Below are positions 13,645-59,079 of a DNA stretch of 64,000 nucleotides, piece by piece. The stretch comes from Isoetes taiwanensis (taxonomy: Eukaryota > Streptophyta > Lycopodiopsida > Isoetales > Isoetaceae). A program made the position numbers and the translations under genes. Positions within the stretch are counted from its first letter, which is position 1. Every line of letters starts with the position of its first letter. The notes beneath the pieces are model-generated. The model made no database searches. It was not told where the DNA came from and worked only from the letters and a program-made list of their open reading frames with translations. The stretch is taken from positions 248,001 to 312,000 of the forward strand of contig JAJEKV010000054.1 in NCBI GenBank assembly GCA_021234155.1, written 5' to 3'.

Positions 13645-14178
13645 GGGATCCATTTAAGTGGAATTATGAAGATAGGACCCTACGGAGCACCGCCACTGGG
13701 ATCCTTATATTGAGCTTGGCTGTTCACCACATGCGGGCTGGGTATGGGTTTGACACCTCCTGTGCTAGGTGAACACTGGTTCAAAGGATTTTGGGAGGTT
13801 AAGTCGGGTAAGGACGAGTGATCTCGGACCTCTAGCTTTTCCATAATTTCATTGTGCTCTTGGATGAGACTTGTTTCATTCCTGCCTCATTAGACTGGGG
13901 AGATACAACTTGGAGTGGTCCCATAGGGTGAATTCTTTGAATCAAATCTTGGAAGGCTAAAGTCATAGTTGTTCAAGACCCTCAGTCAACCCCTTGAGTC
14001 TGAGCTCGGGGCAGGAACCCTTATTTTTGGTGAAATTATATATGTCTATGATGATGTACCGTAGTGTTGATGGATGGGATCCATTCCCGCGGGCATATTA
14101 TTATATGTGAATCTACAATATAGGATTTGATAGATGTGAATCTATAATATAGGATGTCCCAGAGGAGGCTGGGTCAAT
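13645..14178. other. Spacer between TRIM array 1 and the Harbinger left end
   Basis: No gene recognised. It contains a short tandem repeat near 14102-14155 (GAATCTAYAATATAGGAT twice). Because Harbinger inserted here, this stretch should be continuous with 28282 onward, so it may belong to the Gypsy remnant's 3' UTR or LTR. Confidence 0.4.
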
Positions 14179-14193: not shown

Positions 14194-17100
14194 GCCATTT
14201 TTTCGCATTTTTCACATCCCCTCCCCCCAAAATGTGGAGGCCATTGGGGGTGGAGACCATCCATATAGTCGGAGGCCCTTTTTCTATATTCCAAATTTGC
14301 AGAAGCAGAGGTCTGCTCTAACCGCAGTTAAGAACACCGATCAGAACGACGATTCTCGATGATTTTGATCAAACATAAGAGGAGAGGACCAAATATAAGA
14401 ACGGCAAAATTCGTCAGTTGTACTACATTCGATTTTCTCACCATCAGAGGAGAAGGAATTGAAAATTGAAAGCGGGAAATAACTTTGGATTTGCTCACGA
14501 TTCCAGGTATTTTAATTTCTGGCATTCAAGAGATACTTAGGTTAATGGATTAGATAAACTTAGGCATTCCAAGATAAAGCCAAATGCTGATGCAGATTTG
14601 GAAGCCAAGGATCAAGCGTGACAGGTTAGATTTGCCACCTGATTCTATGAATTCTAAATTTGCCTCCTGATTCTAAATCCTGATTCAAAATTTGCCTCCT
14701 GATTCTATGAATTGGGATAGTAACTATGCAATAGTTATTTTAGAATTTGCATTCATCTGTACTAGATTCTTCTAAGTTCTAAAACATTGTATTTAACAAA
14801 CAACATTGGCTCACTGAGTTTCTAGCTTCTAACCTAGTTGTCTATGATAGCCAACAATGTTGCAGAAGACCATTGCTGTTATGATAGCCAACAATGTTAT
14901 CCTCTTTTCAACATTCCTCAGATTCATCTTGGACACCATGCAACCACCATTTGAGATGAGAAGTAAGATGGACGAAGAGATGGGAAGGATGAAATTTGTG
15001 TCTATTGTGCTTGTCTTTTCAGCAATGGTACAAATAAGGAATCCAGGTCGAGAATTTCGGGTTTTCCCCAGGCAGTCCACGTTCAATGAAATTATTGAAC
15101 GCCATTCTCGGCAATATGACTTCAATGTTTTAAATTTAAAGTGGAAAGAATAGTAGAAGGTGGATGTTGCTAGCTTTGAGAGATTAGTGGAATTCCTTTC
15201 CCCTTATTTGATCATTCCTGGCCGAAAGGTAAGACCGTCGTTAGACATAAGAACTGCGATCAAGATTGTCTTATATAGGTTGGGTAGCGGCATGAGCACT
15301 AGACGCATGCGGGACTTGTTCCAGGTTGGGAAGTCCACCATTGAAAAATATACCAATAAGGTATGTGGGATTCTGGCTGATAGAAATAAACTTTTGAGGT
15401 TTTTTATCCAAATTCCTAGAGGTGATGATTTGATAAGAGTGATTAATAGCTTTGAAAAACTTTGTGGCCTCCCAAATTGTTGTGGTGCAGCTGATCTACT
15501 TATTTAAAATGTTTTTGGAGGTGGGTGTCCTCTTTTTTCCGGCCGCCGGTAACGCCGGTAACACTCCATTTTCCGGCCAAAAGCGTGATTTTGGCACCGG
15601 AAAATATTTTTAGGCAACACAACATTTTTATCTCCACGACCGTTTTTCTCACTCATTTCTTTCTTCACTGGCCGTTTTCGTTGCTCATTATTCCTCTGAA
15701 ATCACTTCCGGCCATATACCATTTTGAGAAAATAGATAACGTTGGGACTCTACACCGATCTGCCTCAGGAAGCGCCAGCGGCATCGGAAGCCAGGTACAT
15801 CGTCCTCAATCTTCATTTTTTTAATGCTTAGGAATGAATCGCTTAGAGGAAGCTTAGTGCAAGGGCTTAGAGCAGGGCTGAGAGCAGATTATTATTTTTG
15901 TTCAAACCCTACTACGCATGTACAGGTTTTGCTCAATTTGCGCCATAGTTGAGCTGTGCATGTACAGGTTTTTCTCAATTTTGACCCATAGTTGGGCGCA
16001 AAGGCATTTTGCTACTGGATTCAAGGACCAACGAGCAATTTTCAGGTAGATTTCATTTTGGGTGTCTCGGTCTTGAGGTCTGGATCTGTTTACATGTGCC
16101 TGTGCAACTCTTTGGATTTGTTTAAATGGGTCTCGATTTTTTGGCTCAAATGTAGCGTTGAAGAAGCATCATTAGTTGTAGCTCTCAAGATCAAGCCATG
16201 CAAAACATAGCTTACCTGTGTTTTCAATTCTACCAGGTAGTAGTCCTCCGCCTGCATCAGAGTTTCATCACATTTCATCTTCATACATTGGCATCCACTG
16301 AGCAGCCAATTTTGCAGCAACGTGAGCTTTGCTTTTTCTGTGTTTTTATGCTTTAAGTTATGTTTTGGTTGAGAGTGTGTTCCAGAACTTTGGACGAAGT
16401 CTTTTGTGAATTGCATTGTGGACGAATGTAGATCTAAGTCTTCAGATATATTCTTGCTGTGTCCAGATGTCAGTGTTGCTGCACAGAAGCGTCTTCAAAG
16501 CAAGATAAACTTTTCGATTTTTTGCTTCCTTTGTGGCTGATGACTTCTGGTTTGTGGCAGCCATTGATTTTGATTAATGATGTGGACATGAGGCAGAGGT
16601 AAGAGGTAAGACTCCTTATTTATATGTAGCAATCAAATTCTTCAATTACATAATCCGGACCGAGTATATGTAGCATTTGAAATATTTAACAGATCAATTG
16701 CTGTTAAAGTACAGTTAAAATGTGTGCATTCATGGTCTGCTAATGACATCAACATGAGACCAACAGCTACTACTTCTCCAGCTGAAACAAACCTGAAATG
16801 CTGAAAGAGTCATTTTGCTTTTTACTTCCAAGGCTGAGTTTTTGTCACAATGCATGGCATGCATCCCTGTTATATGCTATATCCCTGATTTTTTTGCCCT
16901 TAGCAGAAGTTAGAACTCTATATCTGCCATGCAAATGCCCTTAACAAAATCGATACCCAGACTTTGCAAGAAGGTCCCACAGAATCCATAGGCAGAGTTT
17001 GGAAGTAGAGCCGGCAAATTATTGTGATATTTTTCATAATTAGTAATAATTTTCTGGATACATATTCCAGAATTAGGGAACCCATGTTCATCAGCATTTG

Positions 17101-17358
17101 AAAGATAGAGTGCATGTTTTCTTCTTCCCTGGGAGGTGGATCATTGTATGGGTATAAGTAATTATATTTTTTCAATTGAACAGATTCTGTTTGAAGTATG
17201 TCCTTTTGAGTGATGTTAAGAATAGGTCTTGCAATGCTAATGTCTGCTTACATGCCAGGGCCAAATGCCAGTAGATATGCCTGTTTACTGGATTCCAGCA
17301 CTTATTGTTCAACCACAAGGATTTTTTGTAGGTATACAGCATATGCTGAATCCCAGTG

Positions 17359-17536
17359 GCTTATGCAGGTTTATGTTTATATTGGGAATAGCATCACACT
17401 ATTGTGTATTGCAGCCATCTTAACTCATAAGAAGTGCTCTGAGGCATGCTTATGCAGGTTTATGTTTATATTGGGAATACCATCACACTATTGTGTATTG
17501 CAGCCATCTTAAATCATAAGAAGTGCTCTGAGGTTG
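17359..17536. repeat. 89-bp tandem duplication inside the Helitron
   Basis: Units 17359-17447 and 17448-17536 start GCTTATGCAGGTTTATG and differ at two positions that I noticed (GAATAG/GAATAC and TAACTC/TAAATC). Confidence 0.85.
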
Positions 17537-18249
17537 CTGCCTTGCCAGACATGCAACGGTGCATTGCCATACTTATCATTTATTGAAAACTCCAGTTTTC
17601 ATGTCCATTTATGGCAAAAATCTGGCACTATTTGTTACAACACTTATGTGGAGTGATTGGACAATTTGTTAAGCCAAGTAGCAGCATAGGGAAAACAAAA
17701 CTATTATCACTTGGTATCAAGTCTAAAAATCCTGAAGTTTAATTTACATATGAACCTATTCATAAAATTTGTTAGCAATTAAGTTTTGAAGGAGCTCAGA
17801 AGTATGTGCGAGTTTGTCAGGTGGTGCAGCAAATGGCTTCTGTCTTATAGGTGAGAACGTTGATAAACATTCATAAGAGTTTGTTGAAGATCTGTTTCAA
17901 CGCAGGGTATAAAAGAAGATTAAAATACAAGCAAATTGTGTTGCTAATTTTAAGTGGCATACATCTCATTTATGTTCGCATCTAATGTGTGTCTAAGGTG
18001 CCCTATATGGATATGTAGAGCATGAACATGCAAAATATTGTGTTATCTCCTGTTGTCATTCTCTATTATGTTCAATATATGATAGGATAATAGAAGCGTG
18101 CAATCTTTTCTCGCTGAATTTGTCACAAATTCTTTGTGTAATTGTTGAGGGCTAAAATACAGTTTTAAGTATTTGACGATATTTGAGGTTCAAATTATGG
18201 TAAGTGGCATTTGAGGTTCAAGCTGTTGTAATTGATTAATTTATTTGAT

Positions 18250-18390
18250 GTTGCTTGCTGGGATCGCAGTGAAGGGAATGGAGATGGTCCTTGGGTTTAT
18301 AGATGACCCACTCCTAGCTAACGGGACGCCCACCTGCAAATTAAGATTTGAATCCCAACCTTCTAATCTCTATTCCCCTACATTTGAGCC

Positions 18391-18424
<34 letters not shown>
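18250..18424 (+). repeat. Possible SINE-like fragment ending in poly(A)
   Basis: A run of 33 A (about 18391-18423) follows a box-B-like motif (GATTTGAATCCC, near 18348). Box A is not convincing and no TSD was found, so a tRNA-derived SINE is only one reading; a 5'-truncated LINE tail is the other. Confidence 0.35.
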
Positions 18425-18427
<3 letters not shown>

Positions 18428-18529
18428 AAAAAGAGAAAAGAGAGCAAACGCTAAAAACTTTTTCCTCCAAGGAATTTAGAGCAATAATCCAGCTAAAGTT
18501 TCCAATGTGTCTTACAAACCTAAAGGTTT

Positions 18530-18680
18530 TGGAGCCTAGATTTCATTGTTTCCGAACTTAGAGCCTAAATCATTCTTTTTGTGATTATATTAAGGAAAGA
18601 CTTGGAGCCTAGATTTCATTGCTTTTGCGATTTTGGAGCCTAGATTTCATTGTTTTTATGATTATATTAAAGAAAGACAA
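18530..18680. repeat. Degenerate repeats of a GAGCCTAGATTTCATT unit
   Basis: At least three copies of GGAGCCTAGATTTCATTG with intervening TGATTATATTAARGAAAGAC, inside the Helitron. Confidence 0.7.
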
Positions 18681-18967
18681 CGAACAAGTGCTAGCTTTTT
18701 GGCCAAGCTTAGTTCTAAAGTTAAAGATTGATCTTTTGAAGTTGTATGCCTAAGGGGATACTATAGTATAGAGGCAAATTAATTTATGTTTATAGGGAAA
18801 CAATAGCTTTCAAGACATCTTGTGCGGTTCGAATCAATGACTTGCATCTGCGTTTCACTTTTACCTCTGAAACGTTGTTTTCGCTACTGAAACTCAAAGT
18901 TAATACATTGATGATACTTTTGTTAAACAATTTTCAATAATGTCCATTCTTGCCAATATTAACATAT

Positions 18968-19077
18968 GCTATTTTGGAAGTTGCACATGTGGATGTTAAA
19001 CTCGAGTAAAAGCACATGCCTTATTTTAAAAGTTGCACATTTGGACGTTAAAGCGGAGTAAAAGCACATGCTCAGGA
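18968..19077. repeat. Two-copy subterminal repeat of the Helitron
   Basis: Two units of about 57 bp containing AAGTTGCACATKTGGAYGTTAAA and GAGTAAAAGCACATGC, just before the terminal hairpin. Confidence 0.75.
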
Positions 19078-19803
19078 TATTAGCCTGGCAACGCCGGGCA
19101 CCGGTTTACTAGTGGATCTTATATTGTGCTCCAAGAAAAACCATCAAAAAAATATGATACACATGCGTATCACAATAGGAAGGGCATCAATTCCATATTA
19201 TTGCAAGGCCTATGTGATACTAACAAGATGTTTTTGGATGTATGTTGCTTGTTTCCTGGTGGTGTCCATGATGCCAGTCAATTTGCTCATTCATCCTTGT
19301 ACAAGAAGTTGAAGTATAACATTGAATGTAGTGGGCCAATACTACAATTGCAATGTGATAATTACCAACAAGAAGGAAGAAGCGCGCAGACAATCAATGT
19401 GCGCCCATACATCCTAGTTGATACAGCCTATCCTTTGCGATAATTCTGTATGAAGATTTTTAACAAGCCCACTACTCTCCTTATGAAGGAGTTTAATAGA
19501 CACATCAAGCATGGAAGGGTGGTGATTGAGAATATTTTTGGGATACTAAAAAGCAAGTTTCAGATCTTAGGAAGTCTAAATTGTCATGTGGATAATGTAT
19601 CAAAAGTTATAGTGGCTTGTTGTGCTCTTCATAACTTTTGTAGGATGGCCACCCTTGGATTATCATTAAATGAACCAAGGCCTGCTGAAAATGTGCCACC
19701 TTATGAGTTTGAACTCAATGCAAAGTGTCTGACAAGAAAGGGACAAGTATTGAGAAGTGCAGTCTTCCAAAAATGGTTGGCCCAGAGAGAGAATGGGATA
19801 TGA

Positions 19804-48869: not shown

Positions 48870-51800
48870 TGAACTGTAGAGGCAGATTGAATATGCAGAA
48901 TGTCTTTGAGAAGCTGGAATTGTTTGCCTGCCAATGGTTTAGTGAAACCATCTGCTGCCTGATCTTTAGTAGAGCAATACTGGAGATTAAGAAAACCATT
49001 TTGTACCTGCTCCCTTACAAAACAGAGTTTTATATCCATATGCTTAATCTGAAGATGACCTTTATAATCCTTGACATGGTAGATAGCCCCCTTGTTGTCA
49101 CAAGTGAACTGTTGCAGGGACGCATGTAAATCTTCAAATCTTCATACAAATGGAGAAGCCACAACATTTCTGGATGTAGCACAAAGTGCTTTCAATTTCG
49201 CATTCGTAGTGCTAATACTAGTTGTATCTTGCTTCTTGAACTCCATGTGATAGGATTGCCTCAAAAAATGAGACATAACCAAGAAGGCAACGCCTGTAAT
49301 CTAGATCTGTTGATGCCATGTCAGAATCCGAGAAAAGATGAAGAGTAGCAGCTGAATTCTTAGTATACATTAGTCCTTACGTCAGAAAAGTACCATTCAA
49401 ATACCTCAATACTTGCTTACCCGCCTTCCAATGAGATTGCTTTGGGTCTTTGCATAAACCTGCTCAACACTCCTACATACACAATATCGGGCCCTGGTAT
49501 GTGTAAGATACAATATTTCTCCTACTAAATGCGTACAATGTGGGATCGTGATCCTCGCATCGAGTCAAGTGTCAACCGACCATTTTCCTGGGGCAGCAAA
49601 GCGGGTTTACATTCGTCATATGAAACTTTTCAAGAATTTCAGCAAGATACTTCATTTGTGTTATATGAATACCATCTTTTGTTTGCCACACCTCAAGACC
49701 TAAACAATAATGCATGAGCCCTAAATCTGTGAGAGTTCAAAATTTGTGGTTAGCAAATTCTTGGTTTGTTGTATAAACCGAGAAGCACCTCCTGTAATGA
49801 TTATATCATCTACATATAGGAGAAGAATAGCTACTTCCCCATTTGCAAAAACCGATAGTATAGGTTAGGATCTGCCCTAGATCTCTCGATAACCCATAGA
49901 AAGAAGATAAGAATTTATCTTCCGATGCCAAAGACCGAGGAGCCCTGTCTCAACCCATAGATACTCTTTTTGAGTTTTGCGGACATAATCGGGGTGTGTA
50001 GAATCTTCAAAACCCGGGAGGCATTTGCAAATAGAGTTCTTCTTCAATATCACCATTTAGGAAAGCACACTTGAAATCAAGATGATACACATCCCATTGT
50101 TTATGAGCAGCCAATGCCAAAACCGCCCTTAGAGTGTCCAACCTAACAACTGGAGCAAACACTTGAGTGAAATCAAACCCTTGCTTTTGAGTATAACCTT
50201 TAGCAACTAATCTAGCCTTGTGTTTAGAAATAGTACCATCCGAATGATACTTGATCCGAAACAACCACTTAGCACCAATAATGTTTTTATTTGGGGAACG
50301 AGGTACCAAGTCCCAAGTTTGTTGCTTATGCATCATTGCAATCTCATCATTCATAGCGTTAACCGATTGTGGAAACCGAAAGCACCGAGAATATGAAGTA
50401 GGAACCACGTCTTTGAGGACTTGTGTCATTAAAGCATAGTTGCACAAAGACACGAGGTGGAGGTGAGGAAGGTGGAGAATTGTAGTCAAGAGGTAGGAAA
50501 TCAGCATAGGGATCACGAATGAGATGTAATTGGTTGAGATCTTTGGTGGAAAATCAGGAAACACTTGGACAATGGAAGAGGAAGAAGTAGGACAAGGAGC
50601 GAGAGGAGGAGGATGAATCGAAACTAAGGACTGGTTGGACACAAGTGTATCATAATCTGTAGAATCTGGCCGATGTAAATCACCGGAGTAGACACCATCT
50701 TCAACAAAAATCATACTCCTAGATGAAAATACCTTTTGAGTGACAGGGTCATAGCATTTCCACGCCTTCATATTCAAAGAATAGCCAATGAACACAACTT
50801 TGATAGCTCGATCGAAAGTTTCCCATTCTTGTGAAGAATCTCGGAGGAATTGTAGTGTAAGCTAGACAACCAAAAACTTTCGGATGTTTAACATCGGGTT
50901 TAGAATTGTAAAGAGCTTGAAAGGGAGTTTGAGTACCCATAGATTTGGTAGGAGCTCGATTTGATATGTAGCGGCAGTAAGAAGCGCCTCAGCCCAAAAT
51001 TTTGGAGACAACCTCTTATGCTTTAACATACTTACGGCCAAATCCATCAATGTCCTGTTTTTTACGTTCGCTACTCCATTCGAGGATGGGCATAAGGGAC
51101 TATCTGCTCTCTCTGAATGCCTTTGGATTTCAGAAATTCTTCAAACTCATTTGAGAGGTATTCTCTAGCATTATCAGTCCTTAACCTTTTGATTGTAGTG
51201 GAGAACTCATTCTCAACTAGCTTGTTTGAGGTCGAGAAAAGATAGAAAGAGCTTGAGATTTGAATTTAATAGGATATACCCATGTATATCTGCTGAAATC
51301 ATCAACAAATACTATGAAGTACTGTTGCCTCCATAAGACTCAATAGGCAAAAATGGATGTCGAATGAATTAATTCCAAAGGTTTTGAGCACGCAGTCCGA
51401 GCTTGAGATGGATAAGGAGCTTTGTACCTGCTTGCCTAGTCTGCGCAAGCATGGCAATTAAGATTTTGATTTTTCAAAATAGGCAGGCCATCAACCATAC
51501 GATATTTAGAGGTCGTGTGACAAGTGCGAGTGAGAAATATGACCATACGGCATGCCAAAGTTCTTTCTCGATGTAGGAGTAAGCTGCTGCTACCATTGAA
51601 GACCGAGTACAAGAATAATTTGGAGATTTAGACTTGTTAAGAACATACTGTGCCTTCAAACATTAAGACTCCCTTTGGCAATAGGCCCAAGTTTTTGAAG
51701 ATCAACAAAATCAAGTGGATTCTTGGAAAGAATATGAACCAACCCTCCGTAAAAACAATCTTGAATATCCAAGCTTCTTGTCAAACCGACTTACACTCAA

Positions 51801-56828: not shown

Positions 56829-59079
56829 ATTTATATTTATTTATTTATTTATGTCTAATGCTCTCTAAGGGCCAAGAGAGGCCATGGAGCACAATATCAA
56901 ATCAATTACAAATTCAGCAATAGTGATCGATGAGTATCTACTGCTTGCAGATATAGTCCTAATTCTATAGGAGCCATACCTAACAATGAATAGTAATCTG
57001 TATTATGTATATCAAACTTCTCTCTGATGTGCGTATACCCTGGGCATTGTATGAACGTATGATGCTCGTCTTCTACGTTGCCAGAGTCACAAATTTTGCA
57101 CAGCCTTGCTTCCCTAGGTGTTTTTGCCCATCTGCCAACCTCTATTTCCAGCCGATGCGAGCTGGTACGGTATTTGGCTATGACCTGTTTACAGAACTTA
57201 GGGATATCCGAATTCAAATAGTTCTGGCTTTTATACTCTTCCATGTGATTGATATTTGCCTTGTACTGCATCATCCGGCTCCCTGGATCTGCCCATAAAT
57301 GGTCAATTGCACATTTCTCGAGCAATATCCTTGCATCTGATTTGTTGGCTGGCCAGTTAGCATCTGTTATGCCCCATTTTCTCGCCCATGCATGAAGATT
57401 TTTCAGCCACCCTTGATCTGAACTTACCATAGCCTGGTAGGACGGGCGATCGGAACATTGCTCCTTCAGCCTGTTAAGAAAATTGATAGATTGGAAAAGA
57501 GCTTCTATCTCTAAAGGAAACATACCAGACTCCGCAAGTATAATGGCATATGGGATTTGAGCTCTGACTCCAAGCTCCTCACGCAGGAATGTCTTTTGTA
57601 CTGCTTCAATCTGATTCCATAGTCTGGCAGGAATTTCTGGTCCCCAAATAGGTGCCTCGTAGAGCAAAATGCCGTTTGCACCAATGTTTTGAACAAAACT
57701 TTCTTAAGTCCCCAATTTGTCAGTGAGGCTGTGCTGCATTTTGTAAGCATGCTGTACAATGCTGTCTTCCCTCCTGTGACTTGGCGTTTAATGCATTCCT
57801 TCCAGCTGTAATTAGTGGATATATCTACTCCCAGGTATTTGTAGCAGTCAACTGTCTCCAGTATATGTCCCTGATATGTAAAATTCGGCCTTTCCCTGGT
57901 ACCAAAGACCATGATCTTTGTTTTTGCTACATTTACCATCATTTTCTTTTCATTACAAAAGTTTTCTAGGCTGCACAAGTGATCTTGCAAGATATGCTTT
58001 TTGCTGGCTACTAGTACCATATCATCGGCATACAGCAATAACTGGATTATGTGCGCTCCTAATTTGGTGCCTGCTAGAGATCGAGCTTTTATCCAGTCTT
58101 CCAGTTCATCTATGAAAATCCCAAACAAAGTTGGAGACAACGGGCAGCCTTGACGTACTCCAATAGTGCTTCTAACCATTGTATCTACTTCCCATACAAC
58201 TTTTATGAGTACCTCTGAATACAACTGAGAAACTGCCGCTCTGATCTCCTGTGGAACCCCTATTCGTGTCATCCTCTCACTCAATTCCATCCGGGGAACT
58301 GTGTCAAATGCTTTAGCAAAGTCCACGAAAGCAACATATAGCGCAACATTAGGAGAGTTTGCCTTCTCTATCATGGCTCGAAGGGTAAGTATGTGGCCTA
58401 GAGTGCTGTGCTTTCGCCTGAAACCAGCTTGGAATAAAGAGCGCCTACCTGTATCCTCAGCCCATGAGCTTAGCTTGATTTCCAAAAGGCTGCCCAAGAT
58501 TTTGGCAAATGTACTTCCAATCAAAATGGTCCTGTAATTGGATACTAACTTTTTATCTCCTGCCTTATGTATCGGATGAACCAAATTGATCTTCCAATCA
58601 TCTGGCATTCCTTGCATGATGCTCTTGTTTAACAAATCTGTAAGAACTGATAGTGTTTTTCACCACCCCATTTAAACAATTCTACACATAGCCCATCCAC
58701 ATCTTTAGCTTTATTGTTCGCCATCCTTGAAATAGCCTCATCTACGTCTGCTTCTGTGAACAGTGCTGCTCTAGAATCTATAATTGGCATGTTATCAGGG
58801 CCGTTTTTCTCATAAATATCCTTAACCAAATTCAGCAAGGCATCTATTTCCAGATTGGCATACTCTGATTTATCTCTGAAAGCGTTCCAAAAGGTTTGTG
58901 GCCCCTTCTTAAATTGTCCGGTAAGCTTGCCCTGTTGCTGCTTGTAATAGGTTCGCTTCTTTCTTCTCAAGAGATGCTTATACCATTTGGGTTTGCAGAT
59001 ATTTCCCTTATCCAACATGCTTCTTGCAGCTTGGCATTCCTCGTCCCACCAAGAATTGCACGGTTCGTAAGCAATCAGT
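56829..59079 (-). mobile_element. LINE 3' half (reverse transcriptase and tail), minus strand, inverted
   Basis: Reads leftwards from a NSWWDEECQAARS block (near 59050) through reverse transcriptase and a zinc motif to a 3' UTR and a (TAAA)n tail at about 56829-56850. It is the missing continuation of the plus-strand half ending at 55506. Confidence 0.85.
56906..59079 (-). pseudogene. LINE ORF2 C-terminal part: reverse transcriptase and zinc motif
   Basis: Three frames: 59079-58629 (WWDEECQAARS, RRKKRTYYKQQQ, DVDEAISRMANNKAKDVDG), 58635-57511 (VHPIHKAGDKKLVSNYRTI, AFVDFAKAFDTVPR, GVRQGCPLSPTLFGIFIDEL, LLLYADDMVLVAS catalytic box, VNVAKTKIMVFG, YKYLGVDIS) and 57667-56906 (REELGVRAQIPYAIILAE, CKICDSG...EDEHHTFIQC zinc motif). 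One frameshift is near 58630 and one near 57600. The catalytic YADD is intact. It has the same family architecture as the GC-rich LINE at 21.4-25.7 kb. Confidence 0.88.

Follow-up and report, generated by a model that had tools for sequence, protein, structure and literature searches.

Head-to-tail Helitrons are themselves already in print: they have been described in plants, bats and fungi, and the portions of these reports that bear on their origin put forward both concatemers and insertion at a 5' end (PMC5876387, PMC5148889). For maize, the relevant portion of one study describes a single case in which two unlike Helitrons lie head to tail and meet at a G/T junction, and proposes for one pair an insertion at the A/TC border of the resident element, leaving the order open (PMC2267711). 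A limited literature search returned no title announcing a genome-wide split of Helitron junctions into like and unlike ones, and absence from print is not claimed. Here, we analysed a stretch of 64,000 nucleotides from Isoetes taiwanensis (contig JAJEKV010000054.1 of assembly GCA_021234155.1), hereafter the window, which corresponds to C1061:248001-312000 of the searched genome (1.66 Gb, 1,110 contigs). We have very little doubt that it carries a non-autonomous Helitron of a large family, presumably moved by the rolling-circle route and inserted, with no target-site duplication, at an AT inside an aspartate codon of a PIF/Harbinger-type transposase copy. Such an insertion is ordinary transposon biology; the notable part is the excess of head-to-tail junctions that the family displays in this genome.

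An earlier note on this DNA, made from the letters alone, had placed a Helitron with its TC after the A at 15494 and its CTAG before the T at 19113, and these coordinates proved exact (Table 1). The element opens with TCTACTTA at 15495, as part of TCTACTTATTTAAAATG, and closes with CTAG at 19109-19112; no target-site duplication was seen around it. The same note had read a 6-bp hairpin 10 nt before the end, which has to be corrected, as the DNA fold gives a 7-bp stem, including one G-T pair, closed by an AAC loop and lying 13 nt before the element end and 9 nt before CTAG. The energy of this hairpin is by itself unremarkable (z -1.39; 21 of 200 shuffles equally good), and the full set of seven pairs is kept in the large majority of family 3' ends from fetched loci.

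Both ends recur throughout the genome. The last 80 bp gave 42 matches (40 of 121 candidates scored), 39 of them ending at base 80, one at base 79 and two at base 39, while the first 100 bp gave 40 matches, one for each of the 40 candidates scored out of 471, with 38 beginning at base 1 and two at base 8. The exact 3' pattern CCGGGCACNCGTTTACTAG occurs 1,046 times (520 + 526) and its reversed control not once; one base of the window's own 3' end departs from it, so that this end stands outside the count. The exact 5' pattern TCTACTTANTTAAAATGTTTTTGG occurs 197 times (89 + 108), again with a control of 0. When 13 units were cut out, the window element included, they ranged from 1,593 to 4,990 bp and most pairs were alike only over about 100 bp at each end (one of the units, L008, was cut at an end without a following T). 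Dispersed copies thus have both ends in common, and the outcome that the earlier note had named as fatal to its own proposal, namely that no other copies share these termini, did not materialise.

Once 15494 is joined to 19113, the frame stays open through ...CCGAADGSYIVLQ..., the insertion point lying inside a GAT (Asp) codon, after GA; without the join, the transposase frame hits a stop at the fourth codon past this Asp codon. The contention that removal of the element restores the frame exactly therefore stands locally, across the join, and fails for the rest of the copy, where three further in-frame stops (two at 15151-15156, one at 19441-19443) occupy positions that are sense in the uninterrupted relative L033. 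Because of these three stops, the window copy is dead with or without the insert. L033 itself has a 417-aa open frame matching DDE_Tnp_4 at 2.5e-22, and two downstream pieces of the window copy match the same profile, while the upstream part by itself gave no Pfam match. DDE_Tnp_4 is the Pfam label; PIF/Harbinger is the family name that we assume for it. We likewise take the split Asp to be the first catalytic one of the DDE triad; its counterpart in L033 is residue 188 of 417, and the DDE_Tnp_4 match there starts at residue 192 (profile position 6), which is consistent with such a role and no proof of it. A search of PDB by sequence gave 0 relatives of the transposase at E 0.01.

In order to look for empty sites, a 320-bp query made of the joined flanks was searched against the genome. 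Its 19 matches comprised (i) nine best ones (89-96%), on C1019, C1040, C1030, C1048, C1074, C1053, C1036, C465 and C1082, which cross the join and cover the query wholly or almost wholly, (ii) two others that also cross it, on C996 (96%, query bases 6-210) and at C952:19616783 (83%), (iii) the window's own two halves, and (iv) six last ones, five of which (70-76%) span the join position, the remaining one being a 39-base match. Six of the nine best were fetched, and all six are ungapped at the join; a single gap in L035 lies away from it. Together with the A and T that flank family ends in fetched loci (Table 1), these paralogous sites indicate that the element went in between A and T and left no target-site duplication. 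As regards the terminal inverted repeats and 3-bp target duplication expected of a PIF/Harbinger element, the left boundary of the target, near 14173, is common to four of the six relatives; for the Harbinger right-hand end, no partner was found in the stretches searched.

The longest internal stop-to-stop frame of the window element has 134 aa, and neither of the two such frames that were scanned, of 134 and 109 aa, matched Pfam, for which reasons we consider the element non-autonomous, in agreement with the earlier note; no Rep/PIF1-helicase open reading frame (ORF) lies within it. A captured gene was also considered for the interior and dropped, as the same two frames were without a Pfam match and no parent gene was identified. 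Over its first 1,097 bp the element resembles L001 (94.6%) and L002 (88.5%), whereas its 3' two thirds are matched wholly or partly, in blocks, by L038-L041, so that it is a mosaic. With 40 of 52 candidates scored, its interior at 16592-18250 was found to match 53 stretches elsewhere, the matching blocks being 73-95% identical. Two further features were seen inside the Helitron: an 86-bp direct duplication (97.7%) at 17359-17533, and a segment at 18270-18432 which by its appearance resembles a short interspersed nuclear element and ends with a long A run.

A plausible autonomous partner exists in the same genome. With 150 of 1,813 candidates scored, the Helitron_like_N profile matched 150 times, compared with none in any of 14 control genomes, and one match lies 3.4 kb upstream of a family 3' end. 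The corresponding candidate, C1018:33456295-33469735 (13,441 bp, from L037:96 to L011:9736), has family 5' and 3' ends with exact family junctions on both sides, and no additional TTTACTAG end was found inside it in the two fetched stretches. Its ORF of 1,979 aa combines Helitron_like_N (1.5e-57) with PIF1 (2.8e-78) and has HVH at residue 1046.

That the window holds a single Helitron insertion agrees with what was observed directly: exact borders, family-wide termini, paralogous empty sites, the A/T context and a Rep/PIF1-helicase element with the same kind of ends. Judging from sequence, the element would have moved by rolling-circle transposition, the Rep-helicase of the 13.4-kb element, or of a close relative, acting in trans, with a nick at TC, the hairpin and CTAG as terminator, and A/T as the site of joining. 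Some observations weigh against this account. Four of the 34 non-tandem 3' ends in fetched loci lack the following T (perhaps being broken or secondary ends), L032 has C rather than T right after the join, the empty sites are paralogues and not alleles of the window locus, and the 5' end of the partner resembles that of the window element over the first 49 bp only, at 88%. As this likeness stops so early, cross-mobilisation is an inference from the common ends. The idea of a 3.6-kb ancestral intron in the transposase gene, resembling a Helitron by chance, can draw on the continuity of the frame once the segment is removed; relatives at 89-96% identity are, however, uninterrupted at that site, which rules it out, and moreover the segment ends recur about 1,000 times in the genome and its borders are TC...CTAG, not GT...AG, leaving this idea with a negligible probability. 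The intron had been the other way in which the earlier note allowed that it might be wrong. It would be just as far-fetched to regard the segment as part of a rolling-circle concatemer or tandem array, albeit that 21% of exact family 3' ends abut another member's 5' end; transposase sequence stands on both outside flanks, and a BLAST search of the window with the element as query brought up no further copy of its ends at E 1e-3. The two host flanks refute an array for the window copy, and we retain the single insertion.

The exact junction pattern CCGGGCACNCGTTTACTAGTCTACTTA occurs 222 times (111 + 111; control 0), that is, 222 of the 1,046 exact 3' ends (21%) abut another member's 5' end with zero bases between them, and ACTAG precedes 41 of the 197 exact 5' ends (also 21%). 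With an AT dinucleotide fraction of 0.089, as in the window, the 1.66 Gb would offer about 1.5e8 AT sites, and simple arithmetic predicts about 0.002 same-orientation abutments for 1,046 random insertions, against the 222 seen; the same arithmetic stays below 1 even at ten thousand copies. The figure of 222 is inflated by junctions that were later duplicated within arrays, and the pattern, which has to be matched exactly over 18 bases in the upstream element and over 8 in the downstream element, is biased towards young upstream elements. Three related cases deserve mention. At C1034:7645911-7677397, five family 5' ends lie 7.8-7.9 kb apart, each preceded by ACTAG. Five others, all on one strand and 5.4-5.5 kb apart (C1030:13625843-13647711), are absent from the ACTAG list and represent a different kind of tandem repeat. 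An apparent 32-bp 'micro-Helitron' between two elements in L015 mimics a Helitron with both ends; inspection of the letters suggests that the 32 bp across the junction were duplicated in direct orientation, and the case was discarded.

For a comparison of the partners, 100 junctions were listed, 12 that had already been seen were set aside and 11 of the remaining 88 were drawn at random, with 4.6 kb fetched on each side; as six of the 12 left out are in C317, the sample leans away from homogeneous arrays. In 8 of the 11 (L045, L047, L048, L049, L051, L052, L053 and L054) the partners are alike only in their end regions or in short blocks, one (L044) joins like elements, 92% identical over 3.9 kb, and two (L046 and L050) could not be judged as like or unlike. 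L004 is also a junction of unlike elements. L048, whose junction belongs to the series on C1034, consists of an unlike pair followed, after 8.1 kb, by the first member again. Unlike elements do, then, meet end to end. Homogeneous arrays also occur: C317:44293-71388 (partly L042 and L043) holds seven units, six in direct orientation at intervals of about 4.2 kb and one inverted, which are the seven best-scoring copies of the query, and neighbouring units are 98.8% alike in L003 and 95.5% alike in L005.

Junctions of unlike elements are not obtainable from a concatemer of one element, and the sample therefore speaks against concatemers as the main source. Insertion at a resident's A/TC border, by contrast, would be expected to yield unlike junctions at a canonical target. 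It is conceivable, at somewhat less than even chances, that the family prefers the 5' border of resident members (A/TCTACTT) as its target, about one fifth of intact ends having become junctions by successive, often unlike insertions, with homogeneous arrays amplified afterwards. An origin of the junctions mainly in concatemers, through failed rolling-circle termination, or in unequal exchange rather than in independent insertions at the resident 5' border seems to us rather unlikely. It accommodates the homogeneous arrays (C317, L003, L005), the 92% likeness of the L044 units, and the fact that the putative autonomous element and the element next downstream of it are identical over the first, fetched 165 bp. 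It has to contend with the eight unlike junctions, as compared with one like, in the random sample and with L004, and besides, the arrays do not consist of exclusive sisters: one L003 unit resembles L010, from another contig, at 98.0-99.8%, against 98.8% for its neighbour, and the C317 units have broken copies (87-93%) on C1100 and C1045. An identical junction would also result if circular Helitron intermediates recombined homologously with the common 5' end of a resident, and the present data do not separate this route from the preference for resident borders.

Taken together, the window element offers a Helitron insertion that is cleanly proven by several empty sites, and through it a non-autonomous family is linked with a plausible autonomous element of this genome; the junction excess makes an old question countable: concatemers, insertion at G/T, or insertion at a resident's A/T. 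Elsewhere in the window, the segment 21000-26000 has a G+C content of 51-60%, compared with 34% before and 39% after it, and its three ORFs of 204-226 aa gave no Pfam match at 0.001. Retrotransposon pieces (copia-type gag, pre-integrase, RVT_2, RVT_1) lie at 680-2065, 50007-50861 and 57511-58659 (minus strand).

Table 1. Coordinates of the Helitron, its terminal features and the transposase target in the window
Feature	Position	Strand	Basis
Non-autonomous Helitron, whole element, 3,618 bp	15495..19112	+	Family termini found genome-wide; absent from related target copies
5' insertion border, host A / T of TC	15494..15495	.	Exact coordinates; 7/7 non-tandem 5' ends in fetched loci preceded by A
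3' insertion border, CTAG / host T	19112..19113	.	Exact coordinates; fetched loci have T after 30/34 non-tandem 3' ends
Conserved 5' terminal region (TCTACTTATTTAAAATG...)	15495..15605	+	About 100-121 bp common to members with different bodies
Conserved 3' terminal region ending in CTAG	19033..19112	+	42 matches; core pattern 1,046 times, window end one base off
3' hairpin GCCTGGC-AAC-GCCGGGC	19083..19099	+	DNA fold; 7 pairs kept in 59/65 family 3' ends from fetched loci
PIF/Harbinger-type transposase gene, upstream part to the split GA/T codon	14938..15494	+	Translation across the join, with an assumed start codon; two stops at 15151-15156
PIF/Harbinger-type transposase gene, downstream part, with the stop at 19441-19443	19113..19803	+	DDE_Tnp_4 at 2.7e-10 and 3.2e-10 on two pieces

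Compared with known systems, the target corresponds to a PIF/Harbinger-type transposase (DDE_Tnp_4) whose frame is intact in L033 and, in the window, split by the Helitron and broken by the three other stops. The two domains of autonomous Helitrons (Pfam PF14214 and PF05970) are both present in the single ORF of the putative partner, between family ends, while such an ORF is absent from the window element. Rice Mothra (PMC4683698), in the part of that report describing it, is likewise a high-copy non-autonomous Helitron family with putative mother and autonomous relatives recognised by homology; its sub-types measure 1,252-2,741 bp and carry two blocs of tandem repeats, the likeness being one of description. 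As far as the relevant portion of PMC2267711 extends, the HelA-type Helitrons of maize share with the present family the TC...CTAG ends and the A/T flanks, and with the window hairpin the AA in mid-hairpin and the 9 nt from the hairpin to CTAGT. The literal search rule of that study asks for CG before these 9 nt, where the window has GC, so that a regular-expression test was negative, and the 5' consensus is TC[TC][CA]TA[CT]TA in maize versus TCTACTTA here. The one adjacent pair given there for maize compares with the 222 exact junctions of the present genome. The tandem arrays treated in the pertinent portions of PMC5876387 and PMC5148889 are head-to-tail, as are the junctions of the present family, most of which, among those sampled (8/11), join unlike members.

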